Shown here piece by piece: positions 10,677 to 63,181 of a stretch of DNA of 64,000 nucleotides; position 1 is the first letter of the stretch, and each line of letters starts with the position of its first letter. A program made the translations under genes and the position numbers. The notes under the pieces are model-generated. The model was given only the letters and a program-made list of their open reading frames with translations, did not search any database and was not told where the DNA came from. Location of the stretch: the NCBI GenBank assembly GCA_017454335.1, contig JAFTDE010000019.1, forward strand, positions 18,040 to 82,039, in the 5' to 3' direction. The stretch is from Bacteroidales bacterium (GTDB lineage: Bacteria; Bacteroidota; Bacteroidia; Bacteroidales; UBA932).

Positions 10677-11594
10677 CTAGTTCAGTTTGAATTTGGTGTT
10701 GCCGGTGGCGAAGAAGTCCACGATCTGGCGGGCCGCAGCCAGGCCGGCGTTGACATTGGCCTCCTTGGTCTGGGCGCCCATCTTCTTGGGCGTCGCGAAC
10801 ACGCGCAGGCCGTATTTCTCCTTCAGGGCCTCGATGTTGTCCGGGGCGACGTCGGTGGCGTACTTGAGGTCGGGACGCTCCTCGAGGACGGCGTCCAGTC
10901 CCGCCTCGTCGATCACCTCCTTGCGGGCGGTGTTCACGAGGGTCGCACCCTTGGGCATGCGGGCGATCAGGTCGCGGCCGATCGAACCGACGGTCTGGGG
11001 CGTGGCGGGGATGTGGATGGAGACGAAGTCGCATCCGGCATAGAGTTCCTCGACGCTGGCGACGGGCTCGGCGCCGGCGGCGCGGATGGCGTCAGCGGGG
11101 ATGAAGGGATCCACCGCCTTGACCTTCATGCCCAGCGCGGCGGCCTTCTGGCCGACCAGGCGGCCGACGTTACCGAAGGCCTGGATGCCGAGGGTCTTGC
11201 CCTGGACCTCGCTGCCGGTGGCCGGGGTGAACTGGCAGCGGCACATGTAGATCATCATGGCGATGGCCAGTTCGGCGACGGCGTTGGCGTTCTGGCCCGG
11301 GGTGTTCATGGCCACGACGCCGTGGGCCGTGGCGGCCGGCAGGTCGAGGTTGTCATAACCCGCACCGGCGCGGACGACGATCTTCAGCTGCCGGGCCGCG
11401 TCGAAGACCGCGGGGGTGACCTTGTCCGAGCGGACGATCAGGGCGTCCGCGTCGGCGACGGCCGCGAGGAGTTCGGATTCCTGTTCATATTTTTCCAGGA
11501 GGGCGAAGCTGTGCCCCGCCTTTTCGACGATTTCCTGGATGCCCTTGACCGCGACGGGGGCGAAGGGCTTCTGGGTGGCGACTAAAACTTTCAT
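10677..11594 (-). CDS. serA: D-3-phosphoglycerate dehydrogenase, short type IIIK form
   Basis: SerA oxidises 3-phosphoglycerate to 3-phosphohydroxypyruvate with NAD, the first step of serine synthesis. The 305-residue protein holds only the catalytic and nucleotide-binding domains, without the ASB or ACT regulatory domains of longer SerA. The Rossmann motif is GIQAFGNVG near residues 137-145. Arg224 in NTARKE is the substrate arginine. Where most D-2-hydroxyacid dehydrogenases have TPH, this protein has TPKK (residues 268-271), so lysine replaces the catalytic histidine. That is the recognised type IIIK class, also known from Entamoeba, so it is not an error. The gene overlaps the serC stop by 4 nt. 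Confidence 0.95.
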
Positions 11595-44822: not shown

Positions 44823-45926
44823 TTAATTGTAAAGCGGAGTACCGTCTTCGTAAGTAAAGTCTTTTTCGGAATTCACGGTCATCTGGATCGAGCCCTGGTA
44901 CATCGTCAGGATACCGGTCACATTGATCTTGCGCGATCCGTTCAGCACGTCCTTGGGGATTTCCAGGTCGCCGAACTTCGAGAATCCGCTGGTGCGGATC
45001 ACGACAGTCTTTCCTCCGTCCATCACGAAATTGTGGCTGACGGAATAGGCATTTTTCTCAACTTCGGGATAGGTCCCGTCTCCACGCAAATCCTTCAGGA
45101 ACACCCCTGTATGATCGTTCCCACGTGCAACTTCACAAGCATCCCATCTGCCGGACTGCAGGTACTGCGTCATCCTGTTTTTGGACATGGCCCAGGTTGT
45201 TATACCATGTGTAGGATCCGAAGCCGGGTTCGTGTCCGAAAGGAACACATTGTTGGTAGCGGCTTTCTTGTCTTTTGTGGAATCCAGATACAGCAGGCAG
45301 AAGATCTCATTGTCATAAGTGAGGCCCTTGATGGTAACATATTTACCAATCAACGAATTCGTCACCTGCGTATCGCTCTTCTTGGGGAGTTGAGCCTCGG
45401 TAGGTACGATGGGATTGACGAGCGGCCCCTGGGCGCCCTTGAACACGTGCGCATCAACCAGCAGCGGGGACTCGAGATACGAAGTCTCGTATTCTCCGGT
45501 CGGATCCGTGGCACCGATCTGGATCATGCCCTGACCACCATAAGTACCGCTCTTGAATCCGTACATACCCAGGCAGAGTTCGTTGCACTGGACAAAAAGG
45601 GTCTGGCCGGGACGGTAGAGGTTGTACAGGCTGTTGCGGCCGATCTTGACCTCGATGCCGCCGGTCTCGTCCTGGATGTAGAGGGTCTTGTAGAAATTGC
45701 CGGGCTGGTCGTCAGAGACAACAACGCCGGAGATGATCAAGCTCTGCGTAATCCGGAGGGGAGCACCGTCATACATCTTGCAGAGTTGCGCAATGGTGTG
45801 CGTCGGGGTCATCGTAACCACCGGCTCGGGAGCGGGTGCGTCGTATTTGAACGCCAGGACCGGTTCCCATTCTTCGCAGGAAGCGAGCAGCAGCAGACTT
45901 GCGGCGAATAACAATATCTTTTTCAT
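44823..45926 (-). CDS. DUF5689 domain lipoprotein
   Basis: The 367-residue protein begins MKKILLFAASLLLLASCEEW, a lipoprotein signal with Cys17. About residues 40-160 form the DUF5689 domain, with IAQLCKMYDG, SGVVVSDDQPGNFYKTLYI and DETGGIEVKI. This OB-like pattern is shared with nucleic-acid-binding OB folds of secreted nucleases. About 180-360 look like a second, looser OB-like unit (VTIKGLTYDNEIFCLLYLD to INVTGILTMYQGSIQMTV). No catalytic residues are seen. It lies 4 nt after the TonB receptor gene, so it is probably the surface lipoprotein partner of that receptor in place of a SusD. Confidence 0.85.
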   Translation of the reverse strand: MKKILLFAASLLLLASCEEWEPVLAFKYDAPAPEPVVTMTPTHTIAQLCKMYDGAPLRITQSLIISGVVVSDDQPGNFYKTLYIQDETGGIEVKIGRNSLYNLYRPGQTLFVQCNELCLGMYGFKSGTYGGQGMIQIGATDPTGEYETSYLESPLLVDAHVFKGAQGPLVNPIVPTEAQLPKKSDTQVTNSLIGKYVTIKGLTYDNEIFCLLYLDSTKDKKAATNNVFLSDTNPASDPTHGITTWAMSKNRMTQYLQSGRWDACEVARGNDHTGVFLKDLRGDGTYPEVEKNAYSVSHNFVMDGGKTVVIRTSGFSKFGDLEIPKDVLNGSRKINVTGILTMYQGSIQMTVNSEKDFTYEDGTPLYN

Positions 45927-45930
45927 AGGC

Positions 45931-48768
45931 CTAGAATCTGAAATAAATGTTCAACATATAGTTGAATCCCTGCATGTAGAAGTACTTGCTGTCGAAGCGG
46001 TAGCTGCGTTTCTTGTCGGAGCTGTCGATCAGACGCGTCTGCTCGTAACCGCCGGTCTTGACGCCGCGGTTGTTCGTCATGTTGTTCAGCTGCAGGGAGA
46101 AACCGATCTGGTTGTTGTTGACGTACCAGGACTTGCCGATGCTGGCATTCAGCAGGAAGGCCGGGGCGAATTCCTCCTGGGCCGCCATGTAGGCGATCTC
46201 CGCGGGGGTCTCAATGCCGTCCGGACCGCCGACTGCCGAATGGGTGCGGTAACCCGGGTTCATGTCCAGGTAGGAGTGGGCGAAGTACTGGGCGTTCAGT
46301 TCGAGGTACCAGTAATTGACGTTGTAGTTCAGGCCGATCTGGGCGGCGAGCTGCGGCGTGCTGGGCACGTAGTGCTTGTACGTCTTGACAACGCCGTTTT
46401 CGTCGGCGACGGTGTGCTCTTTCCAGTACGGGACGTCCTCGTCATGCACAATCTCGGCGCTGTTGTCGATGGTCTGGACCATGTGCGGGGTCGAGGTGTA
46501 GATGTACTCGCCCATGCTGAGGATACCCGAGGCGGAGAGGCCCTGGGCGAACAGCGGGACCTTGACACCCAGCTCGATGCCCATGTGGCGCTGGTCGATG
46601 CCGGTCATCGCGAAGTTCGTGAAGGTGTGCTCGCGGTCGTCGTAGAAACTCATCAGGTCGGTCTGGTCCTTGATCTGGGTCCAGAATCCGGTCAGGCGCA
46701 GGTTGTAACCCATGCTGTTGAACTGGTAGTTCACGTCGGCCGACAGGGTCTTCTTGGTCGTCAGGCCGTCCATCATGGTGTTGCGCGTACGCGGCGAGAT
46801 GAAGGACTGGTTGAAGGTCGGGGCGTCGTTGAAGTAACCGGCGTTGACCGAGAAGCGGTGGCCGGTCGGGATCACGTAGGCCAGGCCCACCTTGCCCGAA
46901 TAGACCAGGAAGTTGGCGTGCCTGGACTGTCCGCGGGAGTCGTCCGGGAACAGGCCCTTGCGGACCAGACCATCGCGCCAGAACGTCTCGTAGCCGACGG
47001 AAGCCGCCGCGTTGGCGGACCATCCGCCCCACTCGAAGTTCTCGGTGACCCAGGCGCCGGCCTTGCGGATCTGCGCCAGGTAGTCGTATCCGTACTTGTC
47101 GCCCAGGTACAGCTTGCGGGCTTCGCCGTGGGCGAGGTAGTAATCCAGGTCGTTCTGCAGCTTGACCGGATCGATGGCGTAGTCACGCTCGGCGAAGGAA
47201 TCGATATCCAGGAAGTACCTGCCGCCCAGCAGGTCGGCGATCTTCTTGTAGTTCTCGCTGCGGTTCCACTTGAAGTAGGCGCCCGCATGCAGCAGGTTGT
47301 GCTCGTTGGCGCGCCACTTGATGGTCTCGGCGAGGTTCAGTTCGTTCTGGTCCACGTGGCGTTCCTCCTGCACGTACTTGGCCCGGCCGTCCGCGGCGGC
47401 ATAGTTGACGCGGTACAGGCGGTCCCAGTCGATGTGCTGGTATCCGGCGTATTCCGGGAGGCGGTTCACCCAGGCCTCACGCATCCAGTCCGCCTTGTCC
47501 ACGTTGGACTTGCCGTAGTCCTCGTCCTCCATGAAGGCGTAGGACGGCAGGTTCTTGTAGTAGTCCGGGCGCGGATCCGGGGCGTCGTACCAGTCGAGGG
47601 CGGTGTAGCCGTTGCTGCCGGTGCGCCACAGCAGGGTGGTCGCGGATTCGAAGTCCATGTCGGGCGAGTAGGTGTACTTCAGCACAGTGATGGGCTCGAA
47701 GGTCTTGCGGACGCGCGCGTTGCGCATCTTGCCGTTCTGGTAACCCCAGTTGGAGTTGTACATGTTGTCCCCCATCAGGTCATAGACCTCCTGGGTCGAG
47801 GCGTTCTGGGCGCCGCGCTGGCCCGGCGTGGCGAAGGTGAAGAGACTGATGCGGTGCGCGTCCCAGCTCTTCTCGGCGCCGGCGTAGTAGGCGAAGGAAC
47901 GGTAGTACACGCCCTTGACCCAGTCGTTGCCGCCCAGGCGGGCGGAGGCGCTGACGACATAGGACCAGCCGTTGTCCATCACGCCGGACGAATAAGTCGC
48001 CATGAGGCGCAGGCGGTACAGCGCGCTGTTGGACAGCACGCTCAGGCGCAGGCCGGGACGTACGTCGGCGGGATTGCCGAGGATGTTGGTCACGCCGTTG
48101 AATCCGCCGATGGCATAGGGCGAGGTCTGCAGGCCGGAGGTGACGTCCTTGGAGCGCATCACCTCGTTCAGGCCGCTCCACAGCGAATACGGCGAGTATC
48201 CGGTGAGGGCGTCGTTCAGGCGCACGCCGCTGAGCATCACATCCTGCAGCTCGGAGTTGTAGCCGCGGTTCTTGAAGCGGATCGAGCTGAACCCGTAACT
48301 GACGGCGTTGTCATACACGTCGTTCGATCCGAAGAGGATGGACGGCGTGTCCGAGTACCCGGAGTCGTCCAGGTCGAACTCGATGAAGTTGTCGTCATCC
48401 ACGTCGGTGCGCTCTTCCGTGACCAGCGGGGAGAGGGTGATGAACATCAGGTCGCGGACAAAGCCCTCGACAAGGACGTTGGTGACCGATGCGGTGTAAC
48501 CGGGGGCGCTGAAGGTCAGCATATAGCGTCCGTTGGCGATGTTCGGCATCTGGAACGTACCGTCGGACCCGGTCTTGAGGCTGTACAGCTCCTGTCCCTC
48601 GGACAGCAGGGTGACCACGGCGCCGCCGATGGGCGCACGGCCCTGCCGGCTGACGACCGTTCCCTTGACAGATCCGATCGTGGGCTGCCTGTCATCCACG
48701 CGACGGTCCTGGGCGGAGAGTCCGGCCGCCGTCAGCAACATCAGGATGGCAATGATGAATCGTTTCAT
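45931..48768 (-). CDS. TonB-dependent receptor with CarboxypepD-reg-like N-terminus
   Basis: Outer-membrane receptor of 945 residues with a signal peptide (MKRFIIAILMLLTAAGLSA). A carboxypeptidase-regulatory-like beta-sandwich (about 30-110) includes GSVKGTVVSRQGRAPIGGAVVTLL. A plug at about 125-225 is followed by a 22-strand-type barrel rich in alternating Tyr/Trp, ending in the aromatic-Arg-Phe tail YFRF. The plug is divergent, with an acidic EFDLDD stretch near 130. No SusD gene is adjacent. Neighbours are a DUF5689 lipoprotein downstream (4 nt) and an EEP-family nuclease upstream (6 nt), so nucleotides or oligonucleotides are plausible cargo. That is inference. Confidence 0.9.
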   Translation of the reverse strand: MKRFIIAILMLLTAAGLSAQDRRVDDRQPTIGSVKGTVVSRQGRAPIGGAVVTLLSEGQELYSLKTGSDGTFQMPNIANGRYMLTFSAPGYTASVTNVLVEGFVRDLMFITLSPLVTEERTDVDDDNFIEFDLDDSGYSDTPSILFGSNDVYDNAVSYGFSSIRFKNRGYNSELQDVMLSGVRLNDALTGYSPYSLWSGLNEVMRSKDVTSGLQTSPYAIGGFNGVTNILGNPADVRPGLRLSVLSNSALYRLRLMATYSSGVMDNGWSYVVSASARLGGNDWVKGVYYRSFAYYAGAEKSWDAHRISLFTFATPGQRGAQNASTQEVYDLMGDNMYNSNWGYQNGKMRNARVRKTFEPITVLKYTYSPDMDFESATTLLWRTGSNGYTALDWYDAPDPRPDYYKNLPSYAFMEDEDYGKSNVDKADWMREAWVNRLPEYAGYQHIDWDRLYRVNYAAADGRAKYVQEERHVDQNELNLAETIKWRANEHNLLHAGAYFKWNRSENYKKIADLLGGRYFLDIDSFAERDYAIDPVKLQNDLDYYLAHGEARKLYLGDKYGYDYLAQIRKAGAWVTENFEWGGWSANAAASVGYETFWRDGLVRKGLFPDDSRGQSRHANFLVYSGKVGLAYVIPTGHRFSVNAGYFNDAPTFNQSFISPRTRNTMMDGLTTKKTLSADVNYQFNSMGYNLRLTGFWTQIKDQTDLMSFYDDREHTFTNFAMTGIDQRHMGIELGVKVPLFAQGLSASGILSMGEYIYTSTPHMVQTIDNSAEIVHDEDVPYWKEHTVADENGVVKTYKHYVPSTPQLAAQIGLNYNVNYWYLELNAQYFAHSYLDMNPGYRTHSAVGGPDGIETPAEIAYMAAQEEFAPAFLLNASIGKSWYVNNNQIGFSLQLNNMTNNRGVKTGGYEQTRLIDSSDKKRSYRFDSKYFYMQGFNYMLNIYFRF

Positions 48769-48774
48769 AGGATC

Positions 48775-49872
48775 TTATTTGGAAATAATGACATACGTGG
48801 GGAAATGGTCGGAATATCCGCCGATAAAGGCGCCTCCGGAGAAGGTGCGGAACGGGTATCCCTTGTACTGGCCCGATTCCTGGACCATGAAGGGCTTGCG
48901 GAACACGCGGCCGTAGTACTTGTCCTGGACGATCTTGCGGACGTGCAGGCCGCCCGCGGGGGCCTTGGCCAGGTTGTAGTTCAGCAGGATCTGGTCATAG
49001 ATGCTCCAGGTGCCCTGGTAGCAGAGCGAACCGAATCCGTTCTCCAGCATCGACCAGAAGGGGTTGTAGAAGTCTTCCGCAGCGACCGCGTCGATGTCCT
49101 TGCGGCCGCGCAGCAGGACGGCCATGCTCTCGTCGAAGGGATCGTCGTTCATGTCCCCCATCACGGCGATCTTGATGCCCGGGAACTTCTGCGTCAGGGC
49201 CATGGCGTGGTGGTAGATGATCTCGGCGCCGCGCGAACGCAGGAAGCCGCTCTTGCCGCCGACGCGCGAAGGCAGGTGGGCGACATAGAAGGCGAAGTCC
49301 TCGCCGGCGATCTTTCCGCGCACCATCAGGATGTCACGGGTGCGGAAGTCGGCCATCTCCTCCTCGGTCATGTCCGGGGTGAGCGAGGTGCCTTCGAAGG
49401 TGAAGGGAATCTCCTCGCTGTCCAGGTAGGTGAAGGTCTTGGGATCGTACAGCAGGGCGACATCCACACCGCGGCGGTCCGGACTGTCGTAATGGACGAT
49501 CTGAAAGTTCGCATCTTCGATCTCGGGCTGGCTGACCAGGTCCTCGAGCACCAGGCGGTTCTCGATTTCGCTGACGCCCAGCACGGTGTGGTAGCGTCCG
49601 TTGTCATCGCGGATGGAGCGGATGACCTGGGCCATGTTGTGGAGTTTCTTGGTGTACTTGGCCTCCGTCCACTTGTTCTGGCCCTCCGGCAGATACTGCT
49701 CGTCGTTCTTGGCCGGATCGTCATAGATGTCGAAGAGATTCTCGAGGTTGTAGAATCCGATCACATAGCCCTGGGTCTGGGCAGGCACCTGGCTGGTCGT
49801 CTTGCCCCCGCGGGCGGCGCCGCAGGAGACCAGGATCAGCAGGCAGGGCAGTAAGTAAAATATCTTTTTCAT
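48775..49872 (-). CDS. Endonuclease/exonuclease/phosphatase family lipoprotein
   Basis: The ATG at 49872 gives a lipoprotein signal MKKIFYLLPCLLILVSCG (Cys17 or near); longer in-frame starts lack one. In the 365-residue protein the DNase I-like fold carries NLENLFD (about 42-48), the metal ligand Glu102 in SEIEN, VAHLPS with a catalytic-type His at 199, GDMND (239-243) and the closing SDH (354-356). These are the full active-site set of the EEP superfamily, which includes secreted DNases and phosphodiesterases. It is 13 nt downstream of a DRGH endonuclease gene and 6 nt upstream of a TonB receptor gene. Confidence 0.93.
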   Translation of the reverse strand: MKKIFYLLPCLLILVSCGAARGGKTTSQVPAQTQGYVIGFYNLENLFDIYDDPAKNDEQYLPEGQNKWTEAKYTKKLHNMAQVIRSIRDDNGRYHTVLGVSEIENRLVLEDLVSQPEIEDANFQIVHYDSPDRRGVDVALLYDPKTFTYLDSEEIPFTFEGTSLTPDMTEEEMADFRTRDILMVRGKIAGEDFAFYVAHLPSRVGGKSGFLRSRGAEIIYHHAMALTQKFPGIKIAVMGDMNDDPFDESMAVLLRGRKDIDAVAAEDFYNPFWSMLENGFGSLCYQGTWSIYDQILLNYNLAKAPAGGLHVRKIVQDKYYGRVFRKPFMVQESGQYKGYPFRTFSGGAFIGGYSDHFPTYVIISK

Positions 49873-49885
49873 AATTACATGGTTA

Positions 49886-51133
49886 TCACTTGAACCAACT
49901 TCCCTTCTTGGACTCGATGCGCGTTGCGGCGTCATTGCCGGCCCGGGCGGGAAGGTTGACGAAGAAATCAAATCCGGTCCGCTTCTCGAGTTCGTCGATG
50001 GTCACCGCGTAGTTCATCGGACTGGCGTTGCCGTAGTCCTTGTGGTCGAACACGAAGGCGATCCCGGTGTAGTATCCGTCGGAAGCGTAATCCTTGAATT
50101 TCGCCTTGCCGGTCTCGGAATTGCCGCCGTAGGCCAGCAGGGCCTTGAAGTATCCGGACGGGATGCGGATCTTGTGTCCGGATTCGTCGAAGGTGTATTC
50201 GGCCGGGCCCTCCAGCAGGCAGCCGGTCACGACGTACAGCGTGTCGACCTCCTTGCTCCAGTTGCGCACGCGCCCCTCGAGGCTGGCCCAGATGCCCGCA
50301 TTGAACTTATTGATCTGCGGGGTCATGTTCGTGCCGTAGAAGGTCTGGACATTGGCCGCGCCGCCATCGGAGGTGTTCATGCGGTCCGCCTGCGGGATCT
50401 GGTGCCCGCGGTCGTATCCGGACCAGGTGGTGTTGGCCTCGTTCCGGTAGGAATAGCGGTCCAGCTTGGGCTGCATCGAGAGCGGAACCTTGGGATCCGG
50501 TCCCCAGGAGTCCTCCCGGCCGGCCGATCCGTCGATCAGGCCCGCGTTCAGCGGGTAGGCCACCCAGTGCGCCACCATCTCGTTCACGTTCCAGCAGAAG
50601 GCATAGTTGCGTTCCTGCTTGCCCTTGACGCGCATGTCGTGCGAGATGAAGTAGGTGCCGGGCGTGTTGACGGCCGGCAGTTCCAGCCAGGCCAGGACCG
50701 GGTCGGATTCGAGGGTCTCCACCGGCTGGACATTGATGTGGCCGGCAGCCTGTGTCACCGTGCAGGTAGCCTGCTGGCCGTCCCCGTTCAGGGTGAGGGT
50801 CAGCGAGCGCTCCTGGTCGGTGTCATTCGGGGTGATGACCAGCACGACGTCCATGGCCGGACCGGTGCCGGAGACGCTGAACGCCGTGTTCTGCGAACCG
50901 GGAGCGCGGAGGCGCGCCCACTCGGTGGCGCCGCCCGCGGCATCCGTCACGCTCAGGGTCCAGGCTCCCGTCGCCTCGACGGTCACGAACTGGCTGCCGC
51001 CGTCCTCGCTCACCTTCGGCGTCTTGACCGACACCTTGATGGGCGTGGGTTCCGGCTCGGGCTGGCCGCAGGACATCAGCGACCCGGTGGCGAGCGCTGC
51101 AAGAAGCAGGACGGCTATGCGGTTGCGAATCAT
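49886..51133 (-). CDS. DNA/RNA non-specific endonuclease with BACON domain, lipoprotein
   Basis: NUC-family (Serratia/NucA-type) nuclease of 415 residues that cuts DNA and RNA with a His-metal mechanism. The lipoprotein signal ends at Cys22 (SLMSCGQP). A BACON beta-sandwich (about 35-130) precedes the nuclease domain (about 140-405). DRGH at 241-244 supplies the catalytic His244, and TNMTPQINKFNAGIW carries the metal-binding Asn. BACON domains in Bacteroidota often sit on surface-exposed glycan or mucin proteins, so this nuclease is probably outward-facing. It lies 3 nt after the BACON/OB lipoprotein gene. Confidence 0.94.
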   Translation of the reverse strand: MIRNRIAVLLLAALATGSLMSCGQPEPEPTPIKVSVKTPKVSEDGGSQFVTVEATGAWTLSVTDAAGGATEWARLRAPGSQNTAFSVSGTGPAMDVVLVITPNDTDQERSLTLTLNGDGQQATCTVTQAAGHINVQPVETLESDPVLAWLELPAVNTPGTYFISHDMRVKGKQERNYAFCWNVNEMVAHWVAYPLNAGLIDGSAGREDSWGPDPKVPLSMQPKLDRYSYRNEANTTWSGYDRGHQIPQADRMNTSDGGAANVQTFYGTNMTPQINKFNAGIWASLEGRVRNWSKEVDTLYVVTGCLLEGPAEYTFDESGHKIRIPSGYFKALLAYGGNSETGKAKFKDYASDGYYTGIAFVFDHKDYGNASPMNYAVTIDELEKRTGFDFFVNLPARAGNDAATRIESKKGSWFK

Positions 51134-51136
51134 AAC

Positions 51137-53536: not shown

Positions 53537-53579
53537 ATAGCCTAATGTTATGTTTTTGTTTAACTTGCCTATAAGCAGT

Positions 53580-53587
53580 CAAATTTA
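53580..53587 (-). promoter_or_regulatory. TAnnTTTG -7 box before the nine-gene run
   Basis: Reads TAAATTTG on the minus strand, 43 nt before the ATG at 53536. A TTG trinucleotide lies about 20 nt upstream, the spacing expected for the Bacteroidota -33 element. Confidence 0.65.
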
Positions 53588-53621
53588 GTGAATTAGCATG
53601 AAAAACACAACTAGCCGGCAT

Positions 53622-53662
53622 AAAAAAGGGGGTGACCGGGGGCACGGGGCCCGGGGTCACCC
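53622..53662 (-). terminator. Intrinsic terminator after the giant lipoprotein gene
   Basis: An 8-bp stem (53630-53637 with 53655-53662, GGGTGACC type) with a 17-nt GC-rich loop is followed on the minus strand by six T (53622-53627). It ends the Oar-receptor/giant-lipoprotein transcript, 23 nt after the stop. It separates that unit from the promoter at 53580-53587. Confidence 0.85.
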
Positions 53663-53684
53663 TCTTCAAAAGAGATGCGCAGGT

Positions 53685-56600
53685 TTATTGATACGTAACC
53701 GATATCGCCGTGATTCTCACCTGGCCGTTTGTGGCCGCCCCCGTATTCCCTACTGAATAGGTCACAGAAGAGGCGTTCGGAGACTGGGCGGCCCCGGAGG
53801 AGACGGTCGCAGTACCATTCTTCAGCGTACCACCGTTGGTGGCAGAATAGGTGATCGTCACCGAAGTGATGGTCTTCGTTCCGGCGCTGATGGTAATCGA
53901 AGCGTTTTCACTCTGATACAATCTCCACTGGTTTCCGCTCGTATAATACTTGCCGGAGTTGCCTCCGCCGCTAACCGTCGCAGTCACGTTCGAGTCAATG
54001 CTCAGCGATGAGTATTTCGTGCCATTGGTCCAACTATTGGAAGAAGCATAGGTCGCGATACTTACATCCGCTACGGTGGAACCACCGCCACCGGACACAG
54101 TGAAGGTGGCGCTGATGGTCACGGGGGACGTACCCATCGTGAAGGTGGTCGAACTGGCCGTTGCACTGACAACGGTAGCACCGGTTACCGTCCAGCTGGT
54201 GAAACCATACCCGGTCCCGGCAGTTGCCGTGAGCGTAACGGTCGTGCCGGACGCCACGGTCGCGCCGCTGGAAATGGCAGAGCCGCCCGCACTTACCGTG
54301 AACGAGCAGCCTGCCGTCGCGGCCGCACCGGTCGGCTGGCTGAAGGTAACGGCCGCAGGACCTGCAGGACCGCCGCCAGTCGAAACCACATCCAGGTCAC
54401 TGGAAATCGAGTAGAACTTGATTTCCTTCGTGGTGTTGTAGTAGGTGACCAGACCCCGGACGTTGATGACAGTGCCGACGTCAGGCAGGGTGCCGCTCTG
54501 GTTGCTGTACAGGACGATGCTGGCATCCTCAGCAATGGAGATATTCTTTCCGCTGACGCCGGAGACGGTCACGCCCGAAACCTGGACATAGCGGCTCTCG
54601 TAGCTGGCGAAGTTGCTCGCGAGCGTACTGATGGACACCTCGGTCGGAGTCACCGTGTTGCCGCTGCTGATCGAGGCCGAAGTCTTGTCGAGGTTCGTGA
54701 TCTCATAGTTGCCCTGGTACTTGGTAACCTTGCCCGCCAGGGTGCCGGAGATCATGTCGCCGACGCTGAGTCCGTGTCCCGAGGAGTAGCCCAGGATCGC
54801 CCCGGACGAATCTTCCAGGTAGAAGTTGGAGCCGCTCACATACGTGACCAGCGCACCGGCCATACCCAGGGAGAAATCGGTGGCGGAAGACCCGTTGTAC
54901 GCCGACTTGATGTCAGCGACCGTGGCCGTCGGTGCCGGCGGGGCGCCGGCCGTGACGGTGACGGTGATGTCCTTGCTCGCAGGCTTGTGGAAGGCATCGC
55001 CCGGGTCGCTGATGGTGATGGTCGTGGAACCGACCGCAACGGCGGTAACGAAACCGGCCGTAGTCACCGTCGCGATCGAAGGATCCGCCGAGACGAAGGA
55101 GAGCGTAGCAGAAGACGTCGTGGTGGCGGCGATCGTCAGCGTGTCACCCACGGCCAGCGCCACGTCCGCCGCCGAAATCACGGCTGCCGGCGCAGGTCCG
55201 ACGATGACAGGGATGGAAATCTCGGCGGGCAGGTAGTCGTCATCCGCATCCGTGAAGATGACCAGGTTGCACTCACCCTCCGCCAGACCCGTCACGTTGC
55301 CCTGACGGTCGACGTCGGCGATGGCCAGGTTGTCCGTGTAGTACTGGATCGTGGCCGTCGAGTTGGTGGTCGCGCCCGGATTGGCGCTGCCGCCCACGCT
55401 GACGGAGATCTTCGACAGGGACGTCGTGATGGCCGTACCGATCTTGGTCGTGGTGACGTCGGCGTTGGACCAGATCGTCACCGCCGGCTTCTTGTTGTTG
55501 TAGGACGGGAAGACCACGAAGTCGCCCACGGTACCTTCGGCGAAGATCTCATCGCCGAAAGTCTCCAGGGTCAGGGAGACATCTCCCTGGGTCAGCGTAC
55601 CGGCCGATCCCTTCTTGGCCGTCTTGGTGACCGTCGCATCCTTGACGAGGATCTTGCGGGAGAGCGCCTTCTCGATGTTCCCGGATACGGCGGCGAGGGT
55701 CATCTCGACCGGATCGGCCGCGATGTTCTCGTCGACATCCCAAGGAGTCGCCAGCGCCGTCAGCTCCGGAACCGGTGCGGACGTGGTGCCGGCCGTACCG
55801 GACACACCCGTGAAGCGGGCCGTTCCGTTGAAGCGCGTACCCTGGACCAGGCCGTGGTTCGCCTTCTTGATGCGTATCGCGCCGGTGGCGTCCTCCAGGT
55901 AGGCATAGCCGTCCGCCGCGTAGGTCACCAGCGCATTCGTCAGGTAGATGTCGGCATTGGACAGCGGGAGCGCCGCGATGACGTTCGCGATGCCGCGGAT
56001 CTCGGGCGTACCGTTCTCGTTGGTGGTGGCCATCGAGTGCTGCGAGAAGATCGTCCAGGCGGGAGCGCCGTCATACACGCGACCGTAGGACTCGCGGGCA
56101 CCGTAGGTCATGTCGAAGGTCAGCAGCGAGGCGCCGGTGTTGTTGACACGGTCGACCTGCTTGCCGGAAGCATCCTTGAGCACCAGGTCGAATCCGTCGG
56201 TGCCGCTGATCTTCCAGGAAGGTCCGTTGCTGTTGCCGCAGGTGATCACCAGGAAGTGACCGGCCTCGATCTTGCCGCGGCCCGCCGGGACCGTCCAGGC
56301 GTCGCCGCCGTTGGACAGGGTGTAACCCGCGATGTCCACATCCGCGGTAGCCGGGTTGTAGATCTCGATCTGCTGGCGTGCAGGCCAGATTTCGTTGATC
56401 AGCACCTGGGCGTTGGCATCGGCCTCGGCAGCGTCGACATAGGACACCTTGAGGTCGGTGTGGTCGCCGCGGCCCGTGAAGGTCAGCACGACGGTGGACG
56501 CCTTGCCCATCCAGGTCGATCCGGACACCATGCCGACGTCGCTGACGGGCGGCGTGAAGTTGGACATGACACCGGTGAACTGGATCTTGGTCAGGTAATT

Positions 56601-59549
56601 GCCGGCAGGAGCCGTGACCGTGATCGTGTTGCCGTTGTACAGACGCACCTCGTTGGCCGTCGCAGTCTTCCAGAACCTCGGGTTGGTCGTAGCCGTTCCC
56701 TTGCTGAAAGCGAACTGGACGCCGTCGATGGTGTAGGTCTCCAGCGGATCGATGTGCGCCGTCGGATTGCCCAGAGCCTCCGGCCAGTTGACACTGACCA
56801 CCGTGGCACCCGGATCGTCCGGTTCGGGTTCCGGACCCGGGCCCGGATCAGGCGTATCGCCGCCATCGGCGGTGACGCCGTTCAGCGAATACAGCCAGTT
56901 CTCTCCGGCGACCGTTTCCGGCGTCTCGCCCTTGTAATTCATCAGCGCACCGTACACGACGACCTCGTCACCCTTCTTGATATCGGTGCCGGCGGTGTAC
57001 TTCTCGCCGTTGTAATACAGGCTGCGGAAGATGTAGAACTCGGCGCTGCCCTCCGTTCCGTCGGCGGAGATGTAGTAGGAAGCGTTGCCGTAGGTACCGC
57101 TCTCGCCATAGGTACCCTTGTTGGCGATGCGGGAGATCTTGCCCTTCACGTACACCTTCTCCGTCTTGTCGTACACGGAGTTGCTGGTCCAGGTGAGGTT
57201 CTTCACCGCGTTGATGGCGGCGGCGACGTTGTACGGGCTGGTCTCCGTTCCGTTGCCGGAAGGCGTGCCCGGATCGGGTTCGGGACCCGGACCCGGCGTG
57301 TCACCGCCGGAGATCTCCCTGGCGCCCACGAACATGCCGGGGAAGATGGCACGGTCGTCGGGGTAGGATCCCCAGGAACCGTACTGCGCATCGTACTGGA
57401 TGTACTTGCCGGTCTCGTCGCAGATGATCTTCATCGTACCGTCGCTCCGGGTCTCGACGGTCCACTCCGCACCGGAGGCGGGCAGGTCGGCCGAAACGTT
57501 GAAGCTGTTGAAGGTACCGGTCATGTACAGGTAACGGCCGTAGCTGTCCTGGATGTACCAGCAGTTCGGTGCCGGGGACAGGGTCCAGAGGAGGGCCTCG
57601 TCCGTAATCGGCAGGCTGCCGTCGGCATTCGCGGTCACATCCACGTAAGGCAGGTAGCCGTAGGTCTTGTTCTCGGCCAGGGCCTTGGCGACATGCCAGA
57701 CGTCACCTTCCTTGGCGGCGATCACGAAAGCCTGGGTGGCTGCCGCGGCCTCGGTCACCTCGGATACGGGCACGTACGAGCTCGAAGCGGGCTCGGGCGG
57801 CGTGTCACCGCCCTTCTCGATGAGGACGGGATAGCAGTTCTTGGCCTGGATGGTTCCGTTGTAGGTGTTCTTGAGGGCGTAGAACGTGATGGTGTTCCCT
57901 TCCTCGAGGCCCAGGTTGGCGAAAGCCTTGTACGTACCGTCGAAGTCGTAGCAGGTGTAGGTCACGCCCGTTCCCGTGGCATCCTTGAACTCGAAGTTGC
58001 CGTAGGTGGTGTTGGTGATCTTGGTCACCTCGACCTTCAGGGTGTACTGCTCGCCGTCCTTGGAATCCGGCAGTTCATTGAACTCGGCCACCGTCTTGTA
58101 CGGATAGACGCCCAGCGCCCATGCGTTCTTGGCCTGCGGGTTGCCGTTGTACACATTGTGCGGAGCCGCGACCGACATGACGTCGCCGTCCTTGACGCCG
58201 AGCGCCTCCAGGACGTTCTGTCCGGTCTTGCCGCCCTTCTCCGGCAGCAGGCCGTAGATGTACACCTTGCCGGTGTGGTCCTCAATGTAGAAGTTGCCGT
58301 ACTTGCCGGGGTTGCCGGAGTAGGTGACCTCGGAGACGACACCCGTGATCAGGTAGGTGCCGGCGTCGTCGGCAGGCAGCGCGTTGAACGCGGCGGCCGT
58401 GGACGGAACGACGCTGACCACCTTCTGCTGGATGAGCGTGATCTTGCTGGTCAGCCCGTTGCCGGACAGCACGAAGGTGGCGGTACGGTCCTCATCCTCG
58501 CCCGTGTAGGCGTCGAAGGCGGCGATGAACTTGCCGCTGCCCGCAGCGCCTTCCTCGGAGAAGGACTTGATCCAGTCGCTGCCGGAGGTGCAGGTGGCCG
58601 TCCAGTCCACCGTGGAAGTGACGGTGAATTCGGCCTGCGTCGCCTCGGCGGTGACGGTCAGCTCGGCCGGATCGGCGACCAGCATGTCAGGCACGGCGGC
58701 CTCCTTGGTGTCCTCGTACAGCCAGGGCAGCACCGCGGTGCCGTCCATCGACGAGTAGGCGGCATAGGAATCGAATCCGCTGTTGCCGTACTGGAGGATA
58801 CCGCCGTTCTGGATGTCGGTGATCTTGACGGTCCCGTCGGACTGCGGTTCCACCTTCCAGACATTGCCCTCGGTCGGAGCCGCGGCAACGCTCCAGGTGT
58901 TGTACCCGCTCTGGTGCCAGATGTAGCGGCCGTCCGGCTGCTGGATGGTATATCCACCGTCCACCGCCGTGAAGATCAGGCCGTTGGAGTTGTCCTCGAA
59001 CTGGAAGCTGCCGTCGTCCTGCAGCTCGGCGACCATCGGCTTGGGATAGCCGTAGGTGCCGCCGGGGCCGAACAGGGTCGGGATGTTGTAGCTTCCGTCG
59101 GGTTTCTTGACAACCAGCAGGTAGGCCTTGCCGCTCTTGACATTGTCCACCTTGACATAGGTCCGGCGCTGGTCCAGCGAGTTGTCGCCTTCCTGCTGGA
59201 CGTTGACCACGGCCATGGCCGGGTCGGCGCCCAGGAAGGTGATTTTGCCGGAACGGGGGCCCTGCAGGGCACCGTCAGCCACGTTGTCAGCGACGGTGAC
59301 GGAGACCTCGGCGCTGCCGCTGCCGACAGCGGGGTTGAGCGTCACCCAATCAGGCGCCACGGAGATCCAGTCTCCGTTGGCGGTAACGGAAATCCTGGCG
59401 GCAGATGCATGCTGCGCCTCGAAAGTGACCTCGCTTACATTGGCAGTGACCTGCGTGGCCAGCGAGGGCTCGAATACATCGGGCTCGCAGCCGACGAACA
59501 GGGCGGCGCCGCAGACGAGGGTCAGGAGAGTTTTGAATATCTGTTTCAT
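53685..59549 (-). CDS. Giant modular lipoprotein (BACON, OB-like, lamin-tail, Big2, InlB-like)
   Basis: At 1,954 residues this is the largest complete gene here. The lipoprotein signal ends near Cys21 (ALFVGCEPD). Approximate order: BACON (25-105); a 165-residue module ending VWKVEPQSDGTVKI (110-290); BACON (295-375); two OB-like units (380-580); a second copy of the 165-residue module with EWTVETRSDGTMKI (590-750); a DUF6359-like OB unit (770-890); a beta-sandwich (915-1025); a lamin-tail domain with VLINEIWPARQQIEIYNP (1030-1150); OB-like units (1165-1340); Big2-like repeats (1345-1520); OB-like (1525-1685); an InlB-type repeat (1695-1770); and a C-terminal beta-sandwich (1775-1954). No catalytic motif was seen. 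It lies 12 nt after the Oar-like receptor gene. Confidence 0.88.
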   Translation of the reverse strand: MKQIFKTLLTLVCGAALFVGCEPDVFEPSLATQVTANVSEVTFEAQHASAARISVTANGDWISVAPDWVTLNPAVGSGSAEVSVTVADNVADGALQGPRSGKITFLGADPAMAVVNVQQEGDNSLDQRRTYVKVDNVKSGKAYLLVVKKPDGSYNIPTLFGPGGTYGYPKPMVAELQDDGSFQFEDNSNGLIFTAVDGGYTIQQPDGRYIWHQSGYNTWSVAAAPTEGNVWKVEPQSDGTVKITDIQNGGILQYGNSGFDSYAAYSSMDGTAVLPWLYEDTKEAAVPDMLVADPAELTVTAEATQAEFTVTSTVDWTATCTSGSDWIKSFSEEGAAGSGKFIAAFDAYTGEDEDRTATFVLSGNGLTSKITLIQQKVVSVVPSTAAAFNALPADDAGTYLITGVVSEVTYSGNPGKYGNFYIEDHTGKVYIYGLLPEKGGKTGQNVLEALGVKDGDVMSVAAPHNVYNGNPQAKNAWALGVYPYKTVAEFNELPDSKDGEQYTLKVEVTKITNTTYGNFEFKDATGTGVTYTCYDFDGTYKAFANLGLEEGNTITFYALKNTYNGTIQAKNCYPVLIEKGGDTPPEPASSSYVPVSEVTEAAAATQAFVIAAKEGDVWHVAKALAENKTYGYLPYVDVTANADGSLPITDEALLWTLSPAPNCWYIQDSYGRYLYMTGTFNSFNVSADLPASGAEWTVETRSDGTMKIICDETGKYIQYDAQYGSWGSYPDDRAIFPGMFVGAREISGGDTPGPGPEPDPGTPSGNGTETSPYNVAAAINAVKNLTWTSNSVYDKTEKVYVKGKISRIANKGTYGESGTYGNASYYISADGTEGSAEFYIFRSLYYNGEKYTAGTDIKKGDEVVVYGALMNYKGETPETVAGENWLYSLNGVTADGGDTPDPGPGPEPEPDDPGATVVSVNWPEALGNPTAHIDPLETYTIDGVQFAFSKGTATTNPRFWKTATANEVRLYNGNTITVTAPAGNYLTKIQFTGVMSNFTPPVSDVGMVSGSTWMGKASTVVLTFTGRGDHTDLKVSYVDAAEADANAQVLINEIWPARQQIEIYNPATADVDIAGYTLSNGGDAWTVPAGRGKIEAGHFLVITCGNSNGPSWKISGTDGFDLVLKDASGKQVDRVNNTGASLLTFDMTYGARESYGRVYDGAPAWTIFSQHSMATTNENGTPEIRGIANVIAALPLSNADIYLTNALVTYAADGYAYLEDATGAIRIKKANHGLVQGTRFNGTARFTGVSGTAGTTSAPVPELTALATPWDVDENIAADPVEMTLAAVSGNIEKALSRKILVKDATVTKTAKKGSAGTLTQGDVSLTLETFGDEIFAEGTVGDFVVFPSYNNKKPAVTIWSNADVTTTKIGTAITTSLSKISVSVGGSANPGATTNSTATIQYYTDNLAIADVDRQGNVTGLAEGECNLVIFTDADDDYLPAEISIPVIVGPAPAAVISAADVALAVGDTLTIAATTTSSATLSFVSADPSIATVTTAGFVTAVAVGSTTITISDPGDAFHKPASKDITVTVTAGAPPAPTATVADIKSAYNGSSATDFSLGMAGALVTYVSGSNFYLEDSSGAILGYSSGHGLSVGDMISGTLAGKVTKYQGNYEITNLDKTSASISSGNTVTPTEVSISTLASNFASYESRYVQVSGVTVSGVSGKNISIAEDASIVLYSNQSGTLPDVGTVINVRGLVTYYNTTKEIKFYSISSDLDVVSTGGGPAGPAAVTFSQPTGAAATAGCSFTVSAGGSAISSGATVASGTTVTLTATAGTGYGFTSWTVTGATVVSATASSTTFTMGTSPVTISATFTVSGGGGSTVADVSIATYASSNSWTNGTKYSSLSIDSNVTATVSGGGNSGKYYTSGNQWRLYQSENASITISAGTKTITSVTITYSATNGGTLKNGTATVSSGAAQSPNASSVTYSVGNTGAATNGQVRITAISVTYQ

Positions 59550-59561
59550 AATTTCTTCGCT

Positions 59562-62500
59562 TTAGAACGTGAGCTTGAGACCGATCTGGCATCTCCAGCG
59601 GGAGTTGAAGTCAGCCAGGTAGATGGCGTTGTCCTTCCGGTAGGAGAAGGTCGGGAGCATGTTGCCGGCAGCATCCTTGGTCAGCTTGTCGACATTCAGC
59701 AGGCTGCGGGTGATCGTACTGGAATAGTACAGGCCCCACTCGCGGTTCAGCAGGTTGGTCAGGTTCAGCACGTCCAGGGTCACCTGCAGCTTGCGGCCGT
59801 TCTGGCGGTCGTAGAAGATGTCCTCGGCGATCTGCAGGTCGATGTGGTGCTCGAACGGCGAAATGCCGCCGTTGCGCTGGGCCCACTGGCCGCGGTGGTT
59901 GCGCAGGTACTTGTCCTCGCGGACGGCCTGCTCGAACTTGGCGGCGTCGGACGGGGTGGTCCAGCTCATCGTGGCGACCTCGGCCTTGGTCGGGATGTAC
60001 ATCAGCGAGTTGCCGGTGTAACCGTCACCGTTGAAAGCCATGGCGGCGGAGGAGTCGTAGTACACGAAGGAGTAGCGCTGGCCCGAGGTCCCGGTGTAGG
60101 CCAGGGACACGGAGGTGGCCAGGCGTCCGCCCGCATAGCGCGGCGAATTGTAAGCCAGGATGGCGTTCACCTTGTGGGGAATGTCGAACAGCGAGTAGGA
60201 CAGTTCGGGCGCGTTGGTGTCCACGGACGGGTTGGTCGTCAGGTTGGAGTGCGCCTGGCTGGACAGACCGTCGTTGGCGGTGAAGGAGTGGCCGTAGGTA
60301 TAGGAAGCCATCAGGTACAGGCCCCAGTCGAAGGTCTTCTCGATCTTGGCGCTGGCCGAGTAGGAGTAACCCTGGTTGGTGTTGCCCAGGGCGACGATGG
60401 TCTTGTAGTCGCCGGACTTGGGCTGGTAGTACGGAGCAACGCTGGCCGGATTGGAGGCAGCGGCCGCGGCGCTGGCGCCGTAGACCTTGGAGGTGGACTG
60501 CAGCGCGACGTTGCGGAAGTAGATGTTGTTGAAGGACTTGCTGAAGATTCCGTCGAGGGTGATCTTCCATCCGCCTTCAAACTCCTGGTCGAGACCCAGG
60601 TTGGCGCGGAGCACCTGCGGATACTTGAAGTTCTCGCTCAGGGTGTTGATCGTCGCACCGGCACTCGATCCCTGGATGCCCTTCTCGCCCGTCTTGGGGT
60701 TGGTGAACTTGTTTCCGAGGACGATGTCGTTGTACGGATCCGTCGTGAGCGGCACGGCAGCCAGGATCTCCTTGTCCGTGATGTTGACGGACTTGGTCTC
60801 GACGCCCGTGTTGTTGTACGCGTTGGACAGCCAGACGAACGGGATGCGGCCGGTGAACATGCCGACGCCGCCGCGGACCAGGGTCTTGTGGTCATCGTTC
60901 AGGAACCAGCGGAATCCCAGGCGCGGGGACCACAGGATGGACAGCTTGGGCACGACGCCCACCTGCTCGGAAGGATCGGTGGAGTACTGCGAGACCTTGC
61001 TGTTGAACCCGGTGTTGGCCGAAGGCTTGTTCAGCAGCAGCGGCGCATCGGCGCGGATGCCGTAGGTCAGGGAGAAGTTGCGGTTGGGCCGCCACTCGTC
61101 CTGCGCGTACAGGCCCAGCTGCAGCGCGTAGGTGTGGGCGAACCAGTCCGGACCGTCCACGCCCTCGACCGTCGGGTCGGCGTAGTTGTACAGGAACTGG
61201 GTGAAGTGGTTGTTGCCCGGGGTCGTCGCGAAGAAATCCGCCACAGAGGAGAAGTTGTACTGTCCCGTCGCATAGGTCCGGTACGCGTTCGCGAAGGTGT
61301 AGAACTCGTTGTTGGTACCCAGGGTCAGGTTGTGCTTGCCCAGCGAGATGTACAGGTTGTCCGTCAGGGTGAAGGTATTCGTCAGGATCTTGTTGATGTA
61401 GCTGCAGTAATGCGTACCGATGTCCAGCACGGTGTTGTCACCGTTGGTATAGACGGTCGGGGCCACATAGGGAACCGAACGGACCTCGTTCACCAGGACG
61501 CCCGTCACGCGCAGGTCGTTGGAGACGACGTCGGACAGACGGGAGTTCAGCTCGCCCACCAGGGTGTGCGTCGTGTTGACGCGGTCGAAGTAGGAGTTGT
61601 TGAAGTAGTAGGTCTTGTTGCCCGCGCCGCTGCCCAGGTTCTTGGCGTCCAGCAGCTGGTAGCGGAACATCAGCTTGTTGCGGTCGTTGATGTTCCAGTC
61701 CAGGCGGACAAGGGCGTTGAGGTTGCGCTTGTCGTTGTTGATGACCTTGTAGGCTTCGTTCACGTCCACACCCGGGGCGAACACGTTCTTGTAGTGCGCG
61801 ATCGCCGCATCGGCCATCGCCACGTTGAAGTACTCTCCCAGGCTGCTGCCGTTGTAGTAGACCTCGTTCTTGAGCTTGCGCTCAGGGGTCTCGTAAGATC
61901 CGTTCAGCGGAGAGTAGATGTTCGGGTTGGAGCTCATCAGGTACTCGAAGCTGGCGAAGACGAACAGCTTGTTCTTGATGATCGGCGCACCGACCGTGGC
62001 GCCGAAGGTCGCATAGTACTGCTGGTCGTACTTCATGCGGGAGTAGGTCCCGTCCGCATTCTTCTTCATCTTGGACTTGATGAACAGCGGATCGTTGGGA
62101 TCCAGCGTGCCCGGGGTCGTACCGATGAAGTTCTCGTTGTAATAATGCGCATAGGCGGTTCCTTTCACCTTGTTGGTACCGGACTTGGTGATGGCGTTGA
62201 TGGCGCCGCCGGTGAAACCGCTCTGGCGGACGTCGAACGGGGCGGCGACGACCTGGATCTCCTCGATGGCGTCATAGGAGATCGGGTTGGCGCCGACGTT
62301 CGCGCCGTTCGTACCCTCAGAGGACAGACCGAAGGAGTCGTTGGCCACGGCGCCGTCCACCTGGAAGGAATTGTAGCGGGTGCTGGTACCGGCGATGGCC
62401 ATGCCTCCGTACTTGCTGGAGGTCGCCTGCGGGGTGTACTTGACGACGTCGAACACGCTGCGGTTGATGGTCGGGATGGACTCGATCTGCGCCAGGTTGA

Positions 62501-62912
62501 AGCTGGCGCCGGCTCCTGTCTTGGAGGCATTGAACGAGCTCTTCGCCTCAACCACGACGGCATTCAGCTGGTTCGTGCTCGTGAGCTGCGCATCGAACTC
62601 GAACGGTTCGCCCAGTTTGAGGGTCACGTTCGGATTCTGGACGGTGTCCATGCCCAGGAAGGAGACTTCCACGACATAGGGACCGCCGATACGCATACCA
62701 TTGATGTGATACTGTCCTGCGTTGTTCGCAATCGCGTAGTACTGCGACCCCGTGGGGGTGTGCACAGCCGTCACGACCGCGCCCGCAAGAGGCTCACCAG
62801 ACTCATCGGTAATGGTACCGCTGAGCGAAGATGTCGTCACCTGCGCATGCAGGGTAACGACAAAGGCCATTGCCGCTACGAGCGACAACAATCTCTTGAT
62901 GGCTTGTTTCAT
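59562..62912 (-). CDS. Oar-like TonB-dependent receptor
   Basis: Outer-membrane protein of 1,116 residues with a signal peptide (about 1-23). A CarboxypepD-reg-like domain (about 28-115, LSGTITDESGEPLAGAVVTAV) is followed by a plug (about 130-245) with IPTINRSVFDVVKYTPQA and IEEIQVVAAPFDVRQSGFTGGAINAITKSGTN. The large barrel ends FNSRWRCQIGLKLTF, with the aromatic C-terminus for BAM recognition. The plug style matches Myxococcus Oar and its Bacteroidota relatives, which are not paired with SusD and have been tied to protein or large-substrate transport. It is co-transcribed with the giant lipoprotein and has an operator-like repeat at its promoter. Confidence 0.93.
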   Translation of the reverse strand: MKQAIKRLLSLVAAMAFVVTLHAQVTTSSLSGTITDESGEPLAGAVVTAVHTPTGSQYYAIANNAGQYHINGMRIGGPYVVEVSFLGMDTVQNPNVTLKLGEPFEFDAQLTSTNQLNAVVVEAKSSFNASKTGAGASFNLAQIESIPTINRSVFDVVKYTPQATSSKYGGMAIAGTSTRYNSFQVDGAVANDSFGLSSEGTNGANVGANPISYDAIEEIQVVAAPFDVRQSGFTGGAINAITKSGTNKVKGTAYAHYYNENFIGTTPGTLDPNDPLFIKSKMKKNADGTYSRMKYDQQYYATFGATVGAPIIKNKLFVFASFEYLMSSNPNIYSPLNGSYETPERKLKNEVYYNGSSLGEYFNVAMADAAIAHYKNVFAPGVDVNEAYKVINNDKRNLNALVRLDWNINDRNKLMFRYQLLDAKNLGSGAGNKTYYFNNSYFDRVNTTHTLVGELNSRLSDVVSNDLRVTGVLVNEVRSVPYVAPTVYTNGDNTVLDIGTHYCSYINKILTNTFTLTDNLYISLGKHNLTLGTNNEFYTFANAYRTYATGQYNFSSVADFFATTPGNNHFTQFLYNYADPTVEGVDGPDWFAHTYALQLGLYAQDEWRPNRNFSLTYGIRADAPLLLNKPSANTGFNSKVSQYSTDPSEQVGVVPKLSILWSPRLGFRWFLNDDHKTLVRGGVGMFTGRIPFVWLSNAYNNTGVETKSVNITDKEILAAVPLTTDPYNDIVLGNKFTNPKTGEKGIQGSSAGATINTLSENFKYPQVLRANLGLDQEFEGGWKITLDGIFSKSFNNIYFRNVALQSTSKVYGASAAAAASNPASVAPYYQPKSGDYKTIVALGNTNQGYSYSASAKIEKTFDWGLYLMASYTYGHSFTANDGLSSQAHSNLTTNPSVDTNAPELSYSLFDIPHKVNAILAYNSPRYAGGRLATSVSLAYTGTSGQRYSFVYYDSSAAMAFNGDGYTGNSLMYIPTKAEVATMSWTTPSDAAKFEQAVREDKYLRNHRGQWAQRNGGISPFEHHIDLQIAEDIFYDRQNGRKLQVTLDVLNLTNLLNREWGLYYSSTITRSLLNVDKLTKDAAGNMLPTFSYRKDNAIYLADFNSRWRCQIGLKLTF

Positions 62913-63116: not shown

Positions 63117-63130
63117 CAGCGCTAAAACTA

Positions 63131-63181
63131 ACGTGGACAGATTTGACTGCTTGCAACCACGCGTAAAAAAATGCTAAAACG
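63131..63181 (+). ncRNA. SAM-II-type riboswitch in the metK leader
   Basis: The leader carries conserved pieces of the SAM-II (metA/SAM_alpha) aptamer in the right order. CGTGG (63132-63136) pairs with CCACG (63157-63161) as P1. GATTTG (63140-63145) is the U-rich loop that lines the SAM pocket. CTTGCAACCACG precedes the P1 close, then come the A-rich segment GTAAAAAAA (63163-63171) and GCTAAAA (63173-63179). The ATG follows at 63182, so folding would hide the ribosome site, as in known SAM-II control. I could not assign the P2 pseudoknot pairs with confidence. The related SAM-V class is an alternative. The gene served, SAM synthetase, is a natural target. Confidence 0.72.

Follow-up and report, generated by a model that had tools for sequence, protein, structure and literature searches.

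A conserved nuclease, TonB-dependent receptor, and lipoprotein gene cluster as a candidate DNA-uptake station in Bacteroidales

In Riemerella anatipestifer, a transposon screen for natural transformation yielded two adjacent genes, RA0C_RS04915, encoding a predicted outer membrane protein with a CarboxypepD_reg domain, and RA0C_RS04920, encoding a DUF5689 plus DUF5017 protein (PMC8459023). Here we describe a gene cluster at positions 44823 to 62912 of a 64,000-nucleotide stretch of a Bacteroidales genome (GCA_017454335.1, contig JAFTDE010000019.1), called the window below, that offers conserved, testable parts for the passage of DNA across the outer membrane. Its core consists of a nuclease (EEP), TonB-dependent receptor 2 (TBDR2), and a DUF5689 lipoprotein, the last two being probable homologues of the Riemerella pair in the same order. 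We think it probable, at roughly two chances in three, that this core serves, in the manner of natural transformation, as a station for DNA uptake at the outer membrane.

Each Riemerella gene is essential for transformation, markerless deletions giving frequencies below detection versus 5.4e-5 for the wild type. In the authors' model, the two proteins bind DNA and move it through the outer membrane. RS04915 homologues are reported in Flavobacteriaceae only, the protein that makes single strands is left to be identified, and RS04910, the gene upstream of RS04915, is mentioned once, as a transcription control (PMC8459023). Riemerella tonBA and tonBB mutants also transform less, the tonBB effect being ascribed to iron, and an iron chelator lowers transformation about 100-fold (PMC8383284). 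In Porphyromonas gingivalis, a 2024 study describes the route of DNA into the periplasm as unclear and the conjugation pilus as not involved (PMC11532111).

The receptor pair and its Riemerella relatives

The core genes, all on the minus strand, are as follows.

45931..48768, minus strand: TBDR2, predicted TonB-dependent transporter and probable homologue of RA0C_RS04915 (blastp to the G336 protein; Foldseek)
44823..45926, minus strand: DUF5689 surface-type lipoprotein with a predicted OB-like fold, candidate DNA receptor and probable homologue of RA0C_RS04920 (PF18942, lipobox, predicted fold)
48775..49872, minus strand: EEP, EEP-type (Exo_endo_phos_3) lipoprotein nuclease and third conserved core gene (PF19580, E 1.3e-95; GDMND and SDH motifs)

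We compared these proteins with those of a 2,164,087-bp genome, G336, in which the gene order is recA, an IMS-family polymerase gene, succinate-dehydrogenase-type genes, comEC, a gene for a 145-aa protein, a carboxyltransferase gene, EEP, and then, divergently, TBDR2 and DUF5689. This order fits the published tags RS04870 (RecA), RS04895 (ComEC), RS04915, and RS04920 in steps of five, with EEP falling at RS04910. The domain matches of the G336 receptor and lipoprotein equal those printed for RS04915 and RS04920, the DUF5017 match lying under its cut-off. Riemerella does not appear among the best 80 of at least 588 receptor relatives with names. We regard the identity of G336 with the R. anatipestifer of PMC8459023 as a strong inference. 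Near the receptor pair, the same genome has a long gene (locus L119, 15494-18931, minus strand) whose opening residues look, by eye, like those of Cas9.

TBDR2 of the window matched its G336 counterpart at 27.6% over 937 positions (blastp E 1.2e-94; genus profile, 440.8 bits), EEP matched at 29.6% over 419 positions (E 2.5e-55), and the DUF5689 lipoprotein matched at 31% over 158 aa (blastp E 4.6e-13).

The only Pfam match in TBDR2 was a CarboxypepD_reg type domain, and its receptor nature derives from the predicted fold, a plug and beta-barrel of the TonB-dependent transporter type. The structure model (predicted local distance difference test score, pLDDT, 78.8; predicted template modelling score, pTM, 0.74) gave Foldseek matches to PqqU/YncD, Fiu, OprC, FecA, and FhuA, with E values of 1.1e-32 to 1.1e-25 among the 50 matches listed. 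All 50 are TonB-dependent transporters. The second receptor of the locus, TBDR1, is recognizable by Pfam, and none of the 10 window proteins scanned matched the SusD family at E up to 1, so that an earlier note on this DNA was right to describe two TonB-dependent receptors without SusD.

The DUF5689 gene lies directly downstream of TBDR2, after a gap of 4 bp. Its product carries the lipobox CEEWEP and matches PF18942 (E 1.2e-41) and, far under the family cut-off of 475 bits, NF052645 (E 7.1e-16, 58 bits). The nearest solved folds to its model were the OB proteins RPA, POT1, HIN-200, and lysyl-tRNA synthetase, none at E of 0.001 or below and with scores only slightly above those of models without a clear match. 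A Pfam OB match was likewise under its family cut-off (E 0.057). The predicted structure resembles OB folds with modest scores. Sequence searches for solved relatives of this lipoprotein and of the 799-aa lipoprotein described below returned nothing convincing. Common ancestry of DUF5689 and the OB modules of the locus was considered and not supported, a profile comparison giving a probability of 6.5%; modules 383-479 and 481-575 of the giant lipoprotein described below had themselves served to build the OB module profile.

Acidic residues just after the lipobox cysteine mark lipoproteins for surface export in Bacteroidota. A simple pattern found a lipobox in 128 of 158 DUF5689 homologues, and at least two acidic residues closely follow the cysteine in 109 of these; the pattern misses some lipoboxes, as in the 799-aa protein, and misplaces others. 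Homologues were counted here and below if they scored above 60 bits (DUF5689), 200 bits (EEP), or 150 bits (NUC, the second nuclease of the locus) and lay within 3.5 kb of a receptor scoring above 400 bits, and the rows are related rather than independent.

Conservation of the core and the possible role of EEP

We looked across three sets of loci to determine how far the core is conserved. The 80 named loci are the best 80 of at least 588 confirmed relatives, with the G336 receptor as first sequence; most are from Flavobacteriia and a few are labelled otherwise. The 47 Bacteroidales loci comprise 40 of 100 strong matches in a sample of the order, chosen across families from the better-scoring rows, plus seven loci collected earlier; seven weaker TBDR2-like loci and the 15 loci of the host's own genus were excluded and the genus loci were counted separately. 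DUF5689 adjoined the receptor in 79 of the 80 named loci and 46 of the 47 Bacteroidales loci, and EEP did so in 72 and 33, respectively. In contrast, NUC lay within 4 kb in 5 of the 47 and in none of the 80. In locus L096 of genome G158 (4591-11437), TBDR2-DUF5689 has an EEP gene on either side.

A TBDR2 profile match of at least 448 bits was present in 100 of 198 sampled Bacteroidales genomes. In a sample of the phylum, 39 of 247 genomes had a match of at least 460 bits, all of them among the 61 genomes of the class Bacteroidia, the receptor of G262 being broken by stops. On these counts, the known range of the receptor is no longer confined to Flavobacteriaceae and extends to Bacteroidales and further families of Bacteroidia. 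Within the genus, 15 of 24 relatives sampled, many of them incomplete drafts, had a strong TBDR2 match, and all 15 kept NUC-EEP-TBDR2. The DUF5689 gene of one genus locus (L041) was dropped by the open reading frame picker in this reading, and part of it is visible in another reading. In a further genus member (G019, locus L052, 8175-15833), EEP, NUC with its BACON domain, and the M3 peptidase gene are kept, a 542-aa protein with weak TBDR2 similarity replaces the receptor, and no DUF5689 is in view; this may be a remodelled or decaying locus.

A quick, midpoint-rooted tree of 51 rows held most family-level groups together and placed the genus and family f18 with Flavobacteriia (support 96), not with other Bacteroidales. 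Transfer between lineages is therefore possible. Over 135 loci, distances correlated at r 0.91 for TBDR2-EEP and 0.76 for TBDR2-DUF5689, with shared descent not corrected for.

The start codon of EEP was placed by us at a lipoprotein signal. Eleven residues that make up the active site were invariant in all 136 receptor-adjacent homologues kept. The simple lipobox pattern matched in only 11 of the 136, the window's EEP included. No solved relative was found by sequence at E up to 0.01. EEP is a candidate third part beside the receptor pair.

The inner side of the putative pathway bears on the place of EEP. The host genome has relatives of ComEC, DprA, YifB/ComM, and DUF1343 and an HHH_3 protein of about 336 aa. 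Its ComEC (L220, 1165-2223) is only 352 aa long, a bare Competence domain, and four genus members examined were alike; in G336 and two f18 genomes, the protein combines DUF4131 with Competence. Lactamase_B was not found at E up to 0.01 in any of these eight ComEC proteins. In a survey, DUF4131 was retained in most Bacteroidetes, and Competence-only forms occurred in Porphyromonadaceae (PMC6299819), and a 2025 study assigns degradation of the nontranslocating strand to a ComEC domain of the Lactamase_B type (PMC12455585). Since all eight ComEC proteins are without this nuclease domain, a separate nuclease may be needed, and EEP would be the obvious candidate for the one that the Riemerella authors leave to be identified.

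Co-occurrence with competence genes could not serve as a test. ComEC was found in 243 of the 247 phylum genomes and its co-occurrence is therefore without information. Among the matches listed, HHH_3 matched in 60 of 60 genomes, which comprised five members of the genus, G336, and 54 genomes out of the 61 of the class; since most best matches fell in a protein of about 700 aa, the separate protein of the host (about 336 aa) was the only one counted as ComEA-like. Relatives of DprA, YifB, and DUF1343 were each present in all eight genomes, the DprA match exceeding its cut-off in two. ComEC was also considered as a constant neighbour of the receptor; it is close in G336, yet in none of the 80 named loci.

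Variable neighbours and transcription units

Beyond the core, the locus contains the following features.

49886..51133, minus strand: NUC, BACON plus DRGH (Endonuclease_NS) lipoprotein nuclease, lineage-specific partner (PF01223, E 3.6e-40)
51137..53536, minus strand: BACON plus OB lipoprotein of 799 aa, accessory (PF01336, E 1.3e-11)
53537..53684, minus strand: terminator-like hairpin followed by promoter-like TAAATTTG, border of two transcription units (read directly by eye)
53685..59549, minus strand: giant OB/lamin-tail domain (LTD)/Ig lipoprotein of 1954 aa, accessory (LTD E 7.4e-12, OB, Big_2, Flg_new_2)
59562..62912, minus strand: TBDR1, Oar-like TonB-dependent receptor, accessory (PF25183, E 1.6e-52; PF00593)
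42840..44819, minus strand: M3 peptidase lipoprotein, Dcp-like, in the same transcription unit as the core (PF01432, E 7.6e-130)

Reading of open reading frames and a Pfam scan of 10 window proteins agreed with the earlier gene list in place and kind. All genes of the locus are on the minus strand, in the order (from 62912 downward) TBDR1, the 1954-aa lipoprotein, the 799-aa lipoprotein, NUC, EEP, TBDR2, DUF5689, the M3 peptidase, and further genes; the peptidase, which the note described as following, lies 3 bp outside the limit it gave for the locus. Intergenic gaps are 3 to 18 bp, with the single exception of 148 bp at 53537-53684, where a strong GC-rich hairpin and T run are followed by TAAATTTG, which resembles a Bacteroidota promoter consensus. 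This one large gap with its hairpin and promoter-like site supports two adjacent transcription units, as the note had proposed, with EEP, TBDR2, and DUF5689 all in the second. The second unit continues without a large gap into gpmI-like and beta-galactosidase-like genes (by eye) and a GDSL-family gene (Pfam scan). The draft genome that holds the window, on contig C3, measures 2.16 Mb and is 78.8% complete. Divergent from TBDR1, a SAM-II riboswitch (63127-63187, plus strand, 62.4 bits) lies directly 5' of an S-adenosylmethionine synthetase gene.

Both lipoprotein nucleases have the intact sites earlier read in them, GDMND and SDH in EEP and, in NUC, DRGH at residues 241-244. Arg242, Gly243, His244, Asn269, Asn278, Trp282, and Glu286 of NUC were invariant in all 21 homologues kept, and Asp241 was present in 8 of them; His244 is presumably catalytic and Asn278 presumably part of the metal site. 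Matches of NUC in PDB were the Anabaena and Serratia type nucleases and EndoG/EXOG. In a locus of another family (L261), the order is TBDR2, DUF5689, BACON-DUF5689, BACON-NUC, and a BACON-DUF5689 lipoprotein also adjoins NUC in L239. An OB-NUC fusion in L043 and L052 was considered and rejected, Pfam giving BACON (and F5/8) plus NUC and no OB.

The 1,954-residue lipoprotein carries its lamin-tail domain as described. OB modules are present in the lipoproteins, but the description of these as built mainly of such modules was overstated for the giant protein, in which only three are clearly detectable (383-479, 481-575, and 799-879) and others are weak; the 799-aa lipoprotein likewise has three clear modules, with others weak. 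Among 12 relatives scanned, 6 gave a Pfam OB match over the cut-off in the lipoprotein that precedes NUC. The other 6 have BACON and further binding domains there, although in two of them (L034 and L036) phmmer still finds a match to the 799-aa protein of the window. TBDR1 itself matches CarboxypepD_reg, OMP_b-brl_4, and TonB_dep_Rec.

The M3 gene is near the core in 12 of the 15 genus loci, in one with an intervening gene. Counted across the genus loci and the 47 Bacteroidales loci, TBDR1 has a homologue upstream of the locus in several members of the genus, and in some genus loci, L040 among them, none is visible; a TBDR1 homologue plus the M3 peptidase stands beside the core in 1 of the 47 (L233), itself of the same genus. 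We therefore rejected the M3 peptidase as a DNA-uptake part, and it is probably not one. NUC, the OB lipoproteins, the Oar-like receptor, and the M3 peptidase are lineage-specific or variable additions and neighbours. Joint conservation, the absence of which the note took to refute its model, extends through much of the class in the case of EEP-TBDR2-DUF5689, takes in NUC within the genus and in a few other lineages, and fails for the set as a whole. The rarity of TBDR1 and M3 beside the core and the variability of the OB lipoprotein weaken an eight-part system and leave the core unaffected. Genome G026 has, away from its core locus, a TBDR1 homologue (844 bits; locus L058, 4503-11930) beside a lipoprotein and a receptor weakly similar to TBDR2.

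These distributions bear on whether the first unit, TBDR1 plus the giant OB/LTD lipoprotein, is a separate adhesion or peptide-import system that merely adjoins the core. The unit has its own terminator, followed by a promoter-like site, and its receptor is rarely near the core elsewhere; against this, it adjoins the core in several genus members, and OB modules are common to the giant protein and the 799-aa lipoprotein. We put the chances of a separate system at about even, and such a system would be compatible with DNA uptake by the core.

A candidate DNA-uptake station and known systems

Our proposal draws on gene content, homology, synteny, conserved active sites, predicted folds, and competence-gene relatives observed here and on the demonstration by others in Riemerella that the receptor pair is needed and that TonB has an effect. 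We favour a DNA-uptake station because of the full-length homology to the G336 pair, the gene order, the Riemerella phenotypes, the conserved synteny, the invariant EEP active site, the distance correlations, the predicted TBDR2 fold, the OB-type fold matches, the competence-gene relatives in the host, and eight ComEC proteins without Lactamase_B.

From this we infer that the substrate is DNA, that duplex passes through TBDR2, that EEP acts where and as described below, and that the organism undergoes transformation. The DUF5689 lipoprotein would bind duplex DNA at the surface through OB folds, partnering TBDR2 much as SusD partners SusC, and TBDR2 would move the DNA across the outer membrane on TonB energy. 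EEP, a lipoprotein here and mostly without a lipobox in relatives, would trim or strand-process it in the periplasm, after which an HHH protein and a stripped-down ComEC would bring it further in. The entry side would, in this lineage, have gained a surface-type DRGH nuclease and BACON/OB lipoproteins.

DUF5689 proteins are acidic (median isoelectric point 4.9), which counts against DNA binding. Competence-gene relatives such as those of the host are widespread and are no proof of competence, and shared descent alone can produce correlations of the size observed.

The earlier note had seen a system for capture, cutting, and TonB-driven import of extracellular nucleic acid. If the system is nutritional, such DNA would be cleaved by the surface nucleases and retained by the OB lipoproteins, and the receptors would bring in oligonucleotides for phosphate, nucleosides, or carbon, the Riemerella phenotype then being a by-product of a DNA importer. 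The intact sites of both nucleases, a transcription unit that also contains a peptidase gene and metabolic genes, and a nuclease-rich version found in some lineages only would all suit such a system, and one DNA importer can serve both ends. However, the core is usually without NUC, and transformation, a process that requires long DNA, depends on homologues of the core, so that cleavage to oligonucleotides is not the best-supported purpose and we consider the nutritional explanation unlikely. That TBDR2-DUF5689 imports a metal, vitamin, or peptide and that its loss blocks transformation only indirectly is still less probable. In favour of this view, small-molecule TonB-dependent transporters provide the closest solved folds, transformation in Riemerella responds to iron and TonB status, and DUF5689 is acidic; against it, loss of the pair abolishes transformation outright where the iron chelator lowers it about 100-fold, and a conserved, catalytically intact nuclease neighbour with an OB-like lipoprotein suits nucleic acid better than metal.

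If the core is a DNA-uptake station, the cluster suggests a testable answer to how Bacteroidota bring in DNA. A wider conjecture, which we rate at somewhat below even odds, is that uptake of duplex DNA in much of the class Bacteroidia proceeds by a TonB-driven transporter (TBDR2, an OB-fold surface lipoprotein, and a dedicated EEP) and not by a type IV pilus, and that EEP, here together with OB lipoproteins and the DRGH nuclease, replaces in trans the nuclease and OB domains missing from ComEC. The earlier note knew of no described system of this composition; this is partly wrong, since the core pair had been described in 2021 in another family.

Among known systems, ComEC proteins with OB and beta-lactamase-like nuclease domains (PMC12455585) would share the same tasks, OB-type DNA binding and nuclease action on incoming DNA; the host ComEC, unlike these, is Competence-only, and the activities may come from separate proteins. 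SusCD importers likewise combine an outer-membrane TonB-dependent receptor with a surface-type lipoprotein encoded directly after it, whereas the partner here is DUF5689, with no SusD-family protein, and the neighbours are nucleases. The DRGH superfamily of NUC includes EndA, the DNA-entry nuclease of Gram-positive transformation, and NUC would similarly act on entering DNA; in contrast to EndA, it is a BACON lipoprotein whose solved matches are of other types, and it is not constant by the core. The closest described system is the Riemerella pair. EEP is divergent in G336, with no NUC homologue in the stretch read, whereas here all genes run in one direction with NUC, OB lipoproteins, and M3; the partner lipoprotein here is without a DUF5017 match, and transformation has been demonstrated in Riemerella only, DNA uptake being proposed here. 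The two loci nevertheless share a receptor homologous over its full length, its CarboxypepD_reg domain, a DUF5689 gene directly downstream, and, going by G336, an EEP gene next door.
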